A model generated the notes under the pieces. It was not told the DNA's origin. It was given only the letters and a program-made list of their open reading frames with translations, and did not search any database. From contig JACPAV010000011.1 of the NCBI GenBank assembly GCA_016180645.1, positions 1 to 64,000 of the forward strand: 64,000 nt of DNA, written 5' to 3'. Shown here piece by piece: positions 10,854 through 56,462 of the stretch (positions within the stretch are counted from its first letter, which is position 1; each line of letters begins with the position of its first letter). The DNA comes from Nitrospirota bacterium. GTDB lineage: Bacteria > JACPQY01. The position numbers and the translations under genes are program-made.

Positions 10854-11756
10854 TTACCCTGTACGCCGCAGCATTCGTTCATCGATGAATTTGACAATCT
10901 CAGTCTGAGGCACCTGAATCTCTCCGTCAGCAACGTCAAACCCTTGAGCGCGAATCCTGTACTTCACGATCAATGGCTTCATTGCCCTGTCCGGCTCCTT
11001 GATTCCGACGGCAATGCGAGCTACCCACAGTGGTTCATCCCGATGGACGATATCGTTCGCGCCACCCTTAAAGGCGCATCGGTTCCCCGGCTCAGGTTCG
11101 AGATTCCACGTGCCGTTCCCATCCACGCCGCTATTGTTGATAGCGTATCCCTCGCATGGTTCGAAAACAGCGTGCGGGAATCTCGCTTCCTTTCGGGTGC
11201 GATTCCTTACGCCTAGTTTCACGTAAACGGCATGGCGCGTGCCGTCGTGCCCCCTGCTCGTTCCACCTGATTGGAGGTCATGACATTCGTCCAGCCGTCG
11301 GACCGGAAACGATTGCGTTTTCAGCCATGTCCCAATCTCCTTGATCATGGCATCGGCCCTTTCAGTCGTCTTGGGGTTCAGATGTAGATACTTCATGATG
11401 CCTTCGATCCGTACCTGTGGATCACTGAATACGAGAATAGGGATTTCATCACCGTCGACAATGGTTCTATAGGCTAGTATCGCAATCTCTTGGTTGATCC
11501 AGATTGATGAACGGAAGTGTTCGGATTCACCGTTTTGACGGACAATTCCACGAGAATGCATGACTGCAACACACCCGGAACACTCCTGGAGTTTGGCGAG
11601 GATGCTTTCCGTCAGGCCGTGGAGGGAGCTGACTTTCTCAGCAAAATACCCTTCGTATCCCTCGATACCGTCGATGTACTCTTTTATCCGCGCCCCGATT
11701 TTCTTCTCCTCCTCGGTGCGTTGTCCGCAACTGATGAAAATTAGATTTGCTCCCAT
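10854..11756 (-). CDS. TIR-like domain protein with C-terminal beta-rich domain
   Basis: The product is 300 aa. The N-terminal roughly 140 residues resemble the TIR/SEFIR fold: strand A IFISCGQ, a basic/acidic helix, SLHGLTESILAKLQECSGCV, then strand VMHSRG and IWINQEIAILAY. Glu90 sits where TIR NADases place the catalytic Glu. The C-terminal half (about 160-290) is beta-rich (HAVYVKLGVRNRTRKEARFP...) and could be a sensor domain. TIR proteins in bacteria often act as NAD-consuming effectors in phage defence. The start lies 21 nt after the DUF5677-like stop, so the two form an operon. The TIR assignment is motif-based; another Rossmann-like fold is possible. Confidence 0.6.
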   Translation of the reverse strand: MGANLIFISCGQRTEEEKKIGARIKEYIDGIEGYEGYFAEKVSSLHGLTESILAKLQECSGCVAVMHSRGIVRQNGESEHFRSSIWINQEIAILAYRTIVDGDEIPILVFSDPQVRIEGIMKYLHLNPKTTERADAMIKEIGTWLKTQSFPVRRLDECHDLQSGGTSRGHDGTRHAVYVKLGVRNRTRKEARFPHAVFEPCEGYAINNSGVDGNGTWNLEPEPGNRCAFKGGANDIVHRDEPLWVARIAVGIKEPDRAMKPLIVKYRIRAQGFDVADGEIQVPQTEIVKFIDERMLRRTG

Positions 11757-11777
11757 GCCCCTGTAGATACGCCGGGA

Positions 11778-12638
11778 CTATTCTTCCACGTATTTCCCCA
11801 ACCGCCCGTTTCTGAGGCCTTCCATCAACACACTACCCGCGGCACCCAGTGCACCAACTTCCGTTGACCATGACCACCCGAAGAAACTCGCAATCGAACT
11901 GGCAAGAGCGAGATAGGCAGACGTAGCTTGGAGTGTCCACAGATTTGCACCGTGAGGATTGCACAAAGGCCCCAATACGACTCGCCCGCCATCGTCTTGG
12001 AACATGGCTTGACCACCAAAAGTGCCGTGGGACGCCCTGGATAATATTCCGTAGAGTTTCAAGGATTGTTCTGCGCTTCGTGAAAAACGACTGACTAGGG
12101 CGGATGGCCCTCTCGGGTCAGTATCTTCGGTCGCAAACCAATACTTCCAATTGAAGGTCTTTCCGCTCGGTCTCGTTCCGAGATTGAAGGATTTTGCCAA
12201 CTCTACAGCCCGAGATCTGTCCCTAGCCCCTCCCATTCGGCTCAAGAATTCATCGAGGAATTCCTTCGCGACGGCATCATCGCCCTTTTCTTTGGCCAGA
12301 TGTAGAATCTCGAAGGACAAGAACTTGAACGCCCGGAAGGCGTGATCTTCTTCGGAGATGAATTTCCAGCCAAGAGCTATTTCCAGCATATTCCGTACGA
12401 TCACGGGAGCGACATGTGAATAACCCTGAATGCACAGACTTGAAGTTGCGCTCAATGCAGTTCCTGCGGCGGCGTTCAGTCGAGTTGCCGCATCTGCGGT
12501 TAGAGGTGGAGGTTTTTCCGGGAAGTGAGCTAGCTCCGAGAGAATCTTCCCGGCGAATCCATAGGCTTGATCTCGATATACCGAAATAGCCGGGGTGACA
12601 TCGTCCTTGCAGTTTTCCTTCCTTGCTTCGATCCTCAC
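11778..12638 (-). CDS. DUF5677-like helical protein
   Basis: The product is 286 aa, mostly helical. The segment SHVAPVIVRNMLEIALGWKF and the later LKLYGILSRASHGTFGG resemble the conserved blocks of DUF5677 (an Arg/Glu-bearing helix and a Tyr...Ser/His helix), a family found in accessory regions without known function. A hydrophobic stretch near 230-275 (YLALASSIASFFGWSW, GALGAAGSVLMEGL) may be a membrane hairpin. It is the first gene of the leftward pair, upstream of the TIR-like gene. A sensor or partner role for the TIR-like protein is inferred from adjacency only. Confidence 0.55.
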   Translation of the reverse strand: MRIEARKENCKDDVTPAISVYRDQAYGFAGKILSELAHFPEKPPPLTADAATRLNAAAGTALSATSSLCIQGYSHVAPVIVRNMLEIALGWKFISEEDHAFRAFKFLSFEILHLAKEKGDDAVAKEFLDEFLSRMGGARDRSRAVELAKSFNLGTRPSGKTFNWKYWFATEDTDPRGPSALVSRFSRSAEQSLKLYGILSRASHGTFGGQAMFQDDGGRVVLGPLCNPHGANLWTLQATSAYLALASSIASFFGWSWSTEVGALGAAGSVLMEGLRNGRLGKYVEE

Positions 12639-52746: not shown

Positions 52747-53145
52747 ATGAAGGAAATCAGTCTCATCCTCAAGAACGTGCCGGGCCAGCTCGCCGAGGTG
52801 GCGGACATCTGCGCGGCCGAAGGTATCAACATCCGCGGCATGTGCGTCGCCGAGACCGAACATATTTCGCTTCTCCGGCTTGTGGTGGACGATCTGGACG
52901 CCGCCCACGATGCCTTGAAGGACCGCTTTCCGGTCGGAATCAAGGAGGTGGTCGAAGTGGAAGTGCCTAACAAGCCCGGAGCGCTTTCGAAGATCGCCAA
53001 GATTTTCGCGGAGGCCGGCGTGAACATCGATTATGCCTACGTCGCCGTCGCCCCGGACGGGAAGCGGGACACCCTGATCCTCCGGGTGGACAAGATCAAC
53101 ACCGCCGTCCAGACCCTCAAGGAGAAGCGCATTCGCGTTTATTGA
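52747..53145 (+). CDS. Tandem ACT-domain protein
   Basis: The product is 132 aa. Two ACT repeats: ISLILKNVPGQLAEVADICA...EGINIRG and EVEVPNKPGALSKIAKIFAE...GVNIDYAY. There is no catalytic domain, so it is a small-molecule (amino-acid) sensor, similar to stand-alone ACT proteins beside phenylacetate-CoA ligase or amino-acid genes. It converges with the core-MetE gene, overlapping its stop by 7 nt. Confidence 0.9.
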   Translation: MKEISLILKNVPGQLAEVADICAAEGINIRGMCVAETEHISLLRLVVDDLDAAHDALKDRFPVGIKEVVEVEVPNKPGALSKIAKIFAEAGVNIDYAYVAVAPDGKRDTLILRVDKINTAVQTLKEKRIRVY

Positions 53146-54170
53146 CGTCCTCCCTCTTTTCTGGGAGTGAGGTTCAGTTCCCGGCGGGCGCGCTTCGCGG
53201 CCGCGACCAGGACTTGCAGTTTTCCGATCGCTTCCTCCGTGGTGCGGGTCTTGAGTCCGCAATCGGGGTCGCACCAGACTTGCGCGGCCGGTACCGACTC
53301 CACGGCGGCCTTGATCCGGCTAAAGACAGCCTCCTCCGGATCGATCCGGTGCGAATGGGATTCCACCACGCCGAACGAGAGATCCTTCGAGAATGGATTC
53401 CGCCGGAACATGCCGATCAGGTCGAACCCGCTGTTCGTCATCTCCAGATCGAAGTTGTCCACCGGCACGTTGAGGAGCCCAGGGTAGATGAATTCGAATG
53501 CTCCGTAGCAGACGTGGGTGATAAAATAGGCCGGTAGGCCGTCCGTCACCACGTGCATGGCTTCAATGGCCATCGGGAGCTCCTCGGGGCGCGCGGAGAG
53601 CGCCGGCTCGTCGATCTGGATGATCTTCGCCCCCCCCCGGATGAGCTCCTCGACTTCTTTCCGGATCTCGCGCGCAAACGCCATGGCGGCGTCGCGGCGG
53701 CTTGGATAATATTCATCGAAGGACCAATCGGTCAGGGTGTAGGGCCCGGTGAGCATCCCCTTCACCGGCTTGGCCGTGAGGCCCTGGGCGAATTTCCACC
53801 AGCCCACGGTAATCGGTTTCTCCCAGCGGACCTCGCCCGTAATCACCGGCTTGTGGTAGTAGCGGTTCCCGTAGGACCGCACGAGTCCGCCCTTCTCCAT
53901 GCCACGCAGGTGCTCGGCGAAGTAGGCCACCATGTCCCCGCGGTACTGCTCACCATCCACCAGTACGTCGATCCCTATCTCCTCTTGCTTCTTGATCCAG
54001 TCGGCGGTGGCCTGCTGCTCCTTTTCCTCCACCTGCTTGGAGTCAACCTCGCCTTTGAGCGCCTTCGATTTGATTTTCTTGAGTTCCTCGGGGCGGGGGA
54101 AACTTCCGACGGAGGTCGTGGGCAGGAGGGGCAGCTCAATCCCCAGCTTCTTGAGCTTTTCGGGAGGCAT
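53139..54170 (-). CDS. Core-MetE methionine synthase-like protein, zinc ligands intact
   Basis: The product is 343 aa, the catalytic half of cobalamin-independent methionine synthase without the N-terminal domain. TTSVGSFPRPEELKK and IDEPALSARPEELP are present. Zinc ligands are His219 and Cys221 (FITHVCYGAF), Glu243 (FDLEMTNSG) and Cys304 (CDPDCGLKTR). Such short forms (Mes families) use methyl donors other than folate. It is the downstream member of a coupled pair (1-nt overlap), with FolC encoded just upstream. Confidence 0.88.
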   Translation of the reverse strand: MPPEKLKKLGIELPLLPTTSVGSFPRPEELKKIKSKALKGEVDSKQVEEKEQQATADWIKKQEEIGIDVLVDGEQYRGDMVAYFAEHLRGMEKGGLVRSYGNRYYHKPVITGEVRWEKPITVGWWKFAQGLTAKPVKGMLTGPYTLTDWSFDEYYPSRRDAAMAFAREIRKEVEELIRGGAKIIQIDEPALSARPEELPMAIEAMHVVTDGLPAYFITHVCYGAFEFIYPGLLNVPVDNFDLEMTNSGFDLIGMFRRNPFSKDLSFGVVESHSHRIDPEEAVFSRIKAAVESVPAAQVWCDPDCGLKTRTTEEAIGKLQVLVAAAKRARRELNLTPRKEGGRQ

Positions 54171-55141
54171 CAGTCGGTCCCCTTCAGCAGGGTTCGAACC
54201 TCGTTCATCAGGTTCAGCTTCTGCTCGGCCCGGTCCCGCGGCAGGAACTCAAGTCCACAGGACGTGGTCAGGAACAGCGGACCGGAGCGCACCTTCGCCG
54301 CGATCTCACTCAACAGGTCGGCGATCTTCCGCGGATTTTCCAGTCGGGTGTTTCGCCCATCCAGGAGCCCCGCGGCCAGGCCTTTCGGGCACCCCGTGCT
54401 CTTGATTTCCTGAACCAGCCTCGGGCTGTAGCAAAAATCCACACAGAGCACATCCACATCGAGCTCCTGGAGCGCCCCCCAGAGAGAAGCGCAGTTTCCG
54501 AAATACACGGCGAAAATGATTTTGGCTTTTCCCTTCGCGGAGACGATCGGTTTGAACAGGGCTTTGTACCGGCGGATGTCCACGTCCTTTTTTGCCAGGG
54601 ACGGCTCTTCCACCTGGATCCACTCGGCCCCGGCATCCGCCAGGGCGCGGACCTCCGCGGCTACGGGTTTCGCAAGAATCTCGGCCGCGTCTTCGATGTT
54701 CTCAAACGTGGGGGACTTCCAGATGGAATGATGAGCCAACGTCAACGGACCCATCACCACGGGCTTCACGGGGGTGTGCGTGAGGGAGCGAGCATACACG
54801 TATTCCTCTTTGAGACGCGACGCGCCGCTGATGGTTCGCGAATTCAGGATCGGCTGTCGGATGTAGAAGTTGGTATCAAAGTACCGGAGGAGGCCGTTGA
54901 CCTCAATGCCGTCCCTATCTCTCAATAGGTGCGAAATGGGATCTGTCCAACGAATGAGACCATCCGTGGCCAAGTCCAGTCCCGTCTTGTCCTGCTCCAT
55001 GATGGCTTCCAATACCGCCAAGTCCTGGGAGGCTCGAAGGTCCTCGACCGTCTTGATCCCCCTCTCCCACTGCTCGTGGGTCCGTCGAAGGCCTTGAAGG
55101 CGCACGGAATCCCCAACCCGGGGATAACTCGAATGACTCAT
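54170..55141 (-). CDS. Core-MetE paralogue lacking most zinc ligands
   Basis: The product is 323 aa (ATG 55141; ATG 55156 possible). Same barrel as its neighbour: VRLQGLRRTHEQW, PVVMGPLTLAHHS, WIQVEEPSL and TTSCGLEFLPR. The ligand positions read IIFAVYFGNC: Ala for His, Tyr for Cys, and Asp where the Glu is expected (CVDFCYS); only the last Cys remains. It may be a non-catalytic partner or act on another methyl carrier. It ends on the first base of the next gene. Confidence 0.85.
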   Translation of the reverse strand: MSHSSYPRVGDSVRLQGLRRTHEQWERGIKTVEDLRASQDLAVLEAIMEQDKTGLDLATDGLIRWTDPISHLLRDRDGIEVNGLLRYFDTNFYIRQPILNSRTISGASRLKEEYVYARSLTHTPVKPVVMGPLTLAHHSIWKSPTFENIEDAAEILAKPVAAEVRALADAGAEWIQVEEPSLAKKDVDIRRYKALFKPIVSAKGKAKIIFAVYFGNCASLWGALQELDVDVLCVDFCYSPRLVQEIKSTGCPKGLAAGLLDGRNTRLENPRKIADLLSEIAAKVRSGPLFLTTSCGLEFLPRDRAEQKLNLMNEVRTLLKGTD

Positions 55142-55193
55142 GGTTTGGATTCTCATGGGCGGCGCGGGAATGTAGCATACGACCCTCAGGGGG

Positions 55194-56462
55194 TCAAACA
55201 AAGATGGGAACGGGTATTCGAAAATGGCGATAGGCCCGCGCCACGAGCGTGTGCGAGCCGGTCACAATGACCGGATCTTTCGCCGGTGCGATCAGCCCAC
55301 TTCGATCAAAGGCACGGGTGGAATCCGGTTCGACAACCGCCGGAATACCCAGATCGGAGGCCAAGGCACGCAACGTGTTCGGCTCATGCGCGCGTTCGGC
55401 GTCGGTCGCCCTGGTGAGTACCAGCGAGCCCGCCCACGGCCGCAGAGCGGCCAGAACACCTGCCGCATCCTTGGTGCGAAGCAGAGAGAGCACCACCACC
55501 GGCGCCTTTTGAGGGTATCGGGATTGAAAGACCTCCCGGAGCGCCCGCACGGCGTGTGGATTATGGGCCACATCCAGGAGCCAGGGTCTACCGCGCCTCC
55601 GCACCCACTGGCCTCTGCCGGGCCAGCAGCACCGGGAGAGACCTCGCTGGATCGTCTCCCAGGGAAGATGCAGATCGGCCGCTTCCAATGCCGACACGGC
55701 CAGCACCACGTTTCCCGCGAAGGATCGGCCGGAGAAAACGCTTCGCAGTCGCCTGCCACGAAAAGTCAGAGATGAACCCCCTTCGTATCGCCACTCCCGT
55801 CCCTCCCGCGGGACCATGAGCGGAACGCTACACGCCGCCGACCGCCGACGGAACGGCACGCGCGGTTCCGCTGCCACGGCGGGAGCCCCTGGCTTGATGA
55901 TCATCGCCTTCTCGGCGGCCACGGCCTCCAGCGAACGGCCAAGCCATTCGGTGTGGTCCAGTCCGATCGGAGTCAGAACGGAGACGCAGGGTTGGACCAC
56001 GTTGGTGGCATCCAAACGCCCGCCCATTCCCGTCTCAATCACGGCAAAGTCCACTTCCTCCGAATCGAAATAGAGGAAGGCCGCGACGGTGAGAAATTCA
56101 AAATGCGTCAGCTCAAACGGAGAGGGCCTTCGAAGCGCGTTCCTCACGCGCTCCCCCATTTGGGCAAACACGCTCCCGCGAATCATGGCGCCGTCCACGC
56201 GGATGCGCTCCCGGACGTCCAGGAAATGGGGCGAGGTGTAGAGCCCCACTCGATAGCCTGCCGCGCGGAGAATGGAAGAGAGCAGCGCACAGGTTGACCC
56301 TTTTCCATTCGTACCGGCTACATGGAACACCTTCAGCCGGGAATGAGGGTTTCCAAGCCTTTCCAAGGCTCGGCGGGTAGGACCCAGCCCGAGCCTGATC
56401 CGGAAAGGATCGAGCCCCTCAAGAAAACGCTGGAGATCAGCCCCTCGGCGGAATGTAACCAT
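55194..56462 (-). CDS. folC: Folylpolyglutamate/dihydrofolate synthase
   Basis: The product is 422 aa. P-loop VAGTNGKGSTCALLSSIL, SPHFLDVRERIRVDG, omega-loop-type DFAVIETGMGGRLDATN and LTPIGLDHTEWLG (metal His), then LLDVAHNPHAVRAL. It adds glutamate to folates. It lies between acylphosphatase and the MetE-like pair, 52 nt from the latter, so a methyl/folate link is possible. Confidence 0.93.
   Translation of the reverse strand: MVTFRRGADLQRFLEGLDPFRIRLGLGPTRRALERLGNPHSRLKVFHVAGTNGKGSTCALLSSILRAAGYRVGLYTSPHFLDVRERIRVDGAMIRGSVFAQMGERVRNALRRPSPFELTHFEFLTVAAFLYFDSEEVDFAVIETGMGGRLDATNVVQPCVSVLTPIGLDHTEWLGRSLEAVAAEKAMIIKPGAPAVAAEPRVPFRRRSAACSVPLMVPREGREWRYEGGSSLTFRGRRLRSVFSGRSFAGNVVLAVSALEAADLHLPWETIQRGLSRCCWPGRGQWVRRRGRPWLLDVAHNPHAVRALREVFQSRYPQKAPVVVLSLLRTKDAAGVLAALRPWAGSLVLTRATDAERAHEPNTLRALASDLGIPAVVEPDSTRAFDRSGLIAPAKDPVIVTGSHTLVARAYRHFRIPVPIFV

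Follow-up and report, generated by a model that had tools for sequence, protein, structure and literature searches.

Two overlapping genes on the minus strand of the window, the whole 64,000-nucleotide stretch of Nitrospirota DNA that was analysed, encode proteins that resemble the two barrels of the cobalamin-independent methionine synthase MetE. The features of the locus are listed below.

54170..55141, minus strand: metE-N, probable MetE N-terminal-barrel subunit of a split MetE (323 aa; stop codon included)
53139..54170, minus strand: metE-C, probable catalytic (zinc/homocysteine) subunit of a split MetE (343 aa; stop codon included)
54168..54172, minus strand: TGATG stop/start overlap of one base, read from the sequence (most homologous pairs likewise overlap or abut)
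55194..56462, minus strand: folC, folylpolyglutamate/dihydrofolate synthase (TIGR01499, 334 bits, above cut-off), separated from metE-N by a 52-nt gap on its upstream side
55169..55197, minus strand: weak sigma-70-like promoter TTGACC-17-TACATT close to the upstream side of metE-N (may be a chance match)

The two frames and their one-base overlap agree with a preliminary description of this DNA. The start of metE-N is taken as the ATG at 55141, an alternative in-frame ATG at 55156 being possible, and the TGATG arrangement makes translational coupling of metE-N and metE-C likely. Both frames are genuine coding genes: their Pfam/NCBIfam matches reach E-values of 1e-77 and 1e-112, dozens of genomes carry homologous pairs, and the AF2 models are confident. 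The Pfam matches and homologues rule out chance or non-coding open frames.

The order of folC followed by the pair recurs in the relative from the same phylum (locus L035), and thus in both genomes of the phylum examined. The three genes possibly form one transcription unit, although co-transcription of folC and metE-N remains uncertain because the promoter-like site sits between them; the promoter search near metE-N returned 2 sites in the region versus 0.9 expected in shuffles. Rfam detects no B12 riboswitch in the window, its sole match being a tRNA. Other neighbors include glyA after metE-N in L010 and an MTHFR match near L069, and elsewhere they vary. A conserved operon partner can be ruled out, as folC adjoins the pair only in the window and the phylum relative. 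Two further observations concern the window itself. A plus-strand gene at 52747-53145 encodes a 132-aa ACT-domain-like protein with weak matches to the acetolactate synthase small subunit; it converges on the split-MetE genes and its end overlaps the metE-C stop by a few bases. Far from the pair, two adjacent minus-strand frames at 10854-12638, one of which by eye begins like a TIR/nucleotide-sensing domain (MGANLIFISCGQRTEEEKKIG...), could be a defence-type pair.

Published rules for split MetE (Price et al. 2021, PMC7857596) recognize an N component of at most 400 aa by a Meth_synt_1 score that is above cut-off and higher than that to Meth_synt_2, and a C component of at most 400 aa by at least 200 bits to Pyrococcus furiosus PF1269. 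metE-N fits the N rule, with 323 aa and 95.1 bits to PF08267 (Meth_synt_1; gathering cut-off 27) versus 74.9 bits to PF01717. metE-C, whose 343 aa fall under the 400 aa limit, scores 261 bits to PF01717 versus 35 bits to PF08267. Its best NCBIfam model is PRK04326, at 376 bits and below the model cut-off of 406; it scores 303 bits to the C half of TIGR01371 and 182 bits to the shorter PRK00957 model.

Phylogenies were built from split-N proteins and the C proteins paired with them, together with the separate halves of full-length MetE and a small number of short cores. They place split-N and MetE N halves on one side and split-C, MetE C halves and short cores on the other. This division has an SH-aLRT of 100 in a 108-row tree and support of 100/99 in a more careful 58-row tree. 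The fused MetE N halves and C halves form one long-branched group each, and because the trees are unrooted, they leave undecided whether the two-gene or the fused form came first. By tree position and signature residues, metE-N is orthologous to the MetE N-terminal barrel. The call was made in this way because neither profile nor fold alone separated N from C: the A3 profile scores the MetE C half above the N half, and both AF2 models match the same MetE PDB entries. The metE-N model (mean pLDDT 92.8) has MetE as its best PDB matches (TMq 0.82), which by themselves give no orthology because the matched MetE barrel is unspecified in the Foldseek table; the metE-C model (mean pLDDT 92.2) best matches Thermotoga maritima MetE (TMq 0.89, 36% identity). 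The preliminary description had taken the genes for a Mes-like pair of core-MetE proteins that both lack the N-terminal MetE domain, and had suggested a phylogeny as a check. Run with few short cores, that phylogeny puts the upstream protein with the MetE N halves (100/99), in line with its higher score to PF08267 than to PF01717; the upstream protein is itself the barrel said to be missing.

The zinc positions of both proteins were located by alignment.

54257..54511, minus strand: region of the former zinc positions of metE-N (joint alignment; pattern as in the T. maritima MetE N-barrel)
54509-54511, minus strand: metE-N Ala211 (joint alignment)
54503-54505, minus strand: metE-N Tyr213 (joint alignment)
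54437-54439, minus strand: metE-N Asp235 (joint alignment)
54257-54259, minus strand: metE-N Cys295, retained (joint alignment)
53259..53516, minus strand: region of the metE-C zinc ligands (alignments)
53514-53516, minus strand: metE-C His219 (alignments)
53508-53510, minus strand: metE-C Cys221 (alignments)
53442-53444, minus strand: metE-C Glu243 (alignments)
53259-53261, minus strand: metE-C Cys304 (alignments)

Joint alignment bears out the residues first read from the sequence, namely the complete downstream set and Ala, Tyr and Asp at the first three upstream positions, with Cys295 as the fourth. What does not hold is their interpretation as a new loss, since A/Y/D/C is the standard state of the MetE N-barrel. 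In T. maritima MetE, Phe230, Tyr232 and Asp253 are named as the substitutions that disable the N-barrel zinc site, and Cys309 is retained in most sequences (Pejchal & Ludwig, PMC539065). The joint alignment gives Tyr, Asp and Cys at former zinc positions 2-4 in 77/89, 88/89 and 58/89 split-N proteins (loci from the best 80 of 278 relatives plus the window and eight others) and in 15/16, 16/16 and 7/16 MetE N halves. Because the pattern is common to split-N proteins and MetE N halves, recent degeneration of metE-N is ruled out. A separate deviation occurs among catalytic subunits, six of which (L008, L046, L049, L055, L063 and L069, mostly Methylomirabilota and Rokubacteria records) align Ala with the zinc-ligand Glu, reading DLAIS or DLALK versus DLEMS, and keep His, Cys and Cys; the alignment suggests that their zinc geometry may differ.

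A scan of one genome per species yielded 278 confirmed metE-N relatives, the best 80 of which were kept. Adding the window and eight loci that the relatives search supplied gives 89 loci, with three genomes counted twice (L004/L035, L006/L078 and L007/L107). A catalytic gene adjoins the N gene in 78 of these 89 loci. The spacing is at most 100 nt in 76 pairs and between -13 and +4 nt in 64, distances that are approximate because they were taken to the profile start. The preliminary description had named a lack of conserved homologous pairs as evidence against its own reading; in this set, drawn from the best 80 of 278 relatives, the pairs are conserved and mostly overlap or abut. Several of the 11 loci lacking an adjacent catalytic gene stop at a contig edge, and in L007/L107 and L010 the N and C genes lie on separate contigs. 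Bacterial labels with the pair, provisional because many are MAGs, include Acidobacteria, Methylomirabilota/NC10, Rokubacteria, Deltaproteobacteria, Zixibacteria, Planctomycetota, Nitrospinae, Armatimonadetes, Chloroflexi and Bacillota; archaeal labels include Hadesarchaea and other archaea. Judged by sequence, the split-MetE arrangement is common in uncultured bacteria. The nearest relative among the best 80 of 278, a Nitrospirae-labelled MAG, shares about 63% and 73% identity with the two proteins and is apparently the sole other genome of the window's phylum among those examined. One genome (G124, locus L050, contigs C158 and C126) apparently carries two split-MetE pairs plus a full-length MetH.

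The pair is very probably a split cobalamin-independent methionine synthase, with the two halves of MetE made as two proteins. metE-C would bind zinc and homocysteine and form the larger part of the folate site. Homology to T. maritima MetE suggests a heterodimer in which metE-N packs against the catalytic barrel face to face and closes the cleft holding polyglutamylated methyl-tetrahydrofolate; the methyl group would then go straight from the folate to homocysteine on the zinc, with no B12 involved. MetE requires polyglutamylated folate and places CH3-H4folate in the cleft between its barrels, held mostly by the C-barrel; Pejchal & Ludwig (PMC539065) therefore regard "folate-binding domain" as an inappropriate name for the N-barrel. 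Set against this, the catalytic/pseudo-catalytic heterodimer first proposed is right in outline, as the two barrels probably act together, and wrong in its core-MetE label and its new degeneration. The suggestion that the degenerate member binds the methyl donor is half right: the donor of MetE sits between the barrels, but the catalytic one does most of the holding. The literature examined holds no report of enzyme activity for any split MetE, and no further papers on split MetE were found, which is weak evidence given its partial coverage.

Active-site residues were compared by motif alignment onto T. maritima MetE numbering. The catalytic barrel of metE-C has the His/Cys/Glu/Cys zinc set and the Ser/Glu/Asp homocysteine residues of canonical MetE. 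Equivalents of Ser411, Glu462 and Asp577 (homocysteine) and of Asp467, Met468, Arg493 and Trp539 are present in 78/78 split C subunits from the best-80-of-278 set, and at the N-barrel positions of Lys18 and Lys104 the split-N proteins of the same set have Arg in 89/89. Methyl-folate is likely to be the donor because the folate site retains most of its residues and the gene immediately upstream is folC, whose product makes folate polyglutamates. Several positions have changed, a point against the split-MetE reading. Glu583, which contacts the pterin in bidentate fashion, is conserved as Glu in 16/16 MetE C halves. Its counterpart in metE-C is Ala193, and among the split C subunits of the best-80-of-278 set the 77 with a letter at this position have Val, Ala or Thr. 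In split-N proteins, Gln mostly replaces the N-barrel Arg15, and Tyr mostly replaces His111. The beta4-alpha4 insertion of MetE is absent in split C subunits, as it is in single-domain archaeal enzymes (PMC539065). A conserved Arg-x-Glu-Glu follows the Glu583 position (Arg in 75/78, second Glu in 74/78; Arg194 and Glu197 in metE-C), and this loop may substitute for the lost pterin glutamate.

A more speculative extension, which we consider rather unlikely, makes split MetE a separate synthase branch whose pterin pocket has been rebuilt: the split catalytic subunits examined have lost the glutamate with which MetE grips the pterin, and Arg-x-Glu-Glu stands in its place. The bacterial enzymes might then work with another pterin, or with folates whose tails differ, and the two-protein form might predate fused MetE. 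The missing glutamate also favors a reading in which methionine formation does not need both proteins together with CH3-H4folate, as do the complete catalytic zinc/homocysteine residues of metE-C alone and the resemblance of MesA to split MetE catalytic subunits (Price et al. 2021, PMC7857596). That reading is nevertheless highly improbable: metE-N is orthologous to the MetE N-barrel and its relatives adjoin a catalytic gene in most loci, folC neighbors the pair, and all five short cores examined lack the Trp that stacks on the pterin and the Arg at the glutamate tail, both of them invariant in split C subunits. Four of the five cores also lack the Asp and Met.

Under the split-MetE interpretation, the other methionine genes of the host and its counterparts become relevant. 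The search for metE and metH elsewhere, proposed in the preliminary description, found MetH in a 1273-aa open frame and MTHFR; the host genome contains no full-length MetE or any other PF01717 gene. The organism therefore probably has a B12-dependent and a B12-independent route to methionine. Escherichia coli likewise has both. The pair would not be strictly needed when B12 is available, because the genome already has MetH. Among 35 genomes with the pair, full-length MetE occurs in 0/35, full-length MetH above cut-off in 4/35 and MTHFR in only 25/35, the last count weighing against the split-MetE interpretation; MTHFR was not found in the related, incomplete genome G001. Since most of these genomes lack full-length MetH and all 35 lack full-length MetE, the pair is probably their methionine synthase, and gene content makes it likely to be the sole one in most, with MAG incompleteness and MetH-like pieces counting against certainty. 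Many pair-bearing genomes that lack full-length MetH (G118, G121, G124, G127, G131 and others) have a frame of ~620 aa in which a homocysteine S-methyltransferase domain is fused to an MTHFR domain; in some genomes MetH-like pieces occur separately. The HRbin37 genome has a MetH gene (L044:1-3447) immediately before the pair on the same strand, placing both synthase types at one locus.

Like some methyltransferases of the MetE/UroD superfamily, the pair might move methyl groups between another donor and another thiol and make no methionine. The MetH of the host and the departure of the pterin contacts from canonical MetE fit such a role, but the homocysteine-contact residues are invariant and most pair-bearing genomes have neither full-length MetH nor full-length MetE, which makes it a very remote prospect. 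The original proposal of two folate-independent core-MetE proteins, one degenerated and binding the donor within a heterodimer, reported the zinc-position residues correctly for a pair that is indeed conserved, but is scarcely credible given the position of the upstream protein among MetE N halves, the generality of its substitutions in that barrel and a donor that MetE holds mainly with the catalytic barrel.

Split MetE has already been described, mainly from archaea, with Sulfobacillus sp. hq2 as the sole bacterium named with adjacent genes (Price et al. 2021, PMC7857596). According to the same paper, citing Menon et al. 2009, P. furiosus PF1268/PF1269 form a complex. Because the arrangement, that complex and one bacterial case were known, only the wider bacterial range and the consistent change in the pterin pocket are fresh. 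The first extends split MetE from archaea and Sulfobacillus to many bacterial groups; the second is a specific, testable feature of the split enzyme. Before a short MetE-like gene from an uncultured bacterium is annotated as a folate-independent core synthase, its neighborhood should be searched for an N-barrel gene, and bacteria with the pair could be misjudged as methionine auxotrophs because most have no full-length MetH or MetE.

By published description, the closest counterpart is P. furiosus PF1268/PF1269, which shares adjacent PF08267 and PF01717 genes, each under 400 aa, and no full-length MetE; adjacency of the two genes likewise extends across diverse organisms in our set. Unlike the archaeal pair, that of the window is in a bacterium, beside folC and alongside MetH. 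Canonical MetE (T. maritima 1XPG/1T7L; PMC539065) similarly has two homologous barrels with a zinc site in the C-barrel only, Tyr and Asp at N-barrel zinc positions with the Cys kept, and conserved Trp539, Asp467-Met468 and Arg493. It differs in being a single chain of ~750 aa with both barrels, whereas the window has two polypeptides with no inter-barrel linker, no beta4-alpha4 insertion and a replaced Glu583. The core-MetE/Mes enzymes (MesA-MesD; Price 2021, PMC7857596; Deobald 2020, PMC7005905) resemble metE-C in size and zinc/homocysteine site; their methyl donor is a corrinoid protein or MesX, not folate. Unlike them, metE-C has PRK04326 as its best model, an invariant pterin-stacking Trp and Arg, and a conserved partner, the orthologous N-barrel gene that overlaps it; from genomic context, the folC neighbor and MTHFR point to folate as its donor rather than a corrinoid protein or MesX.
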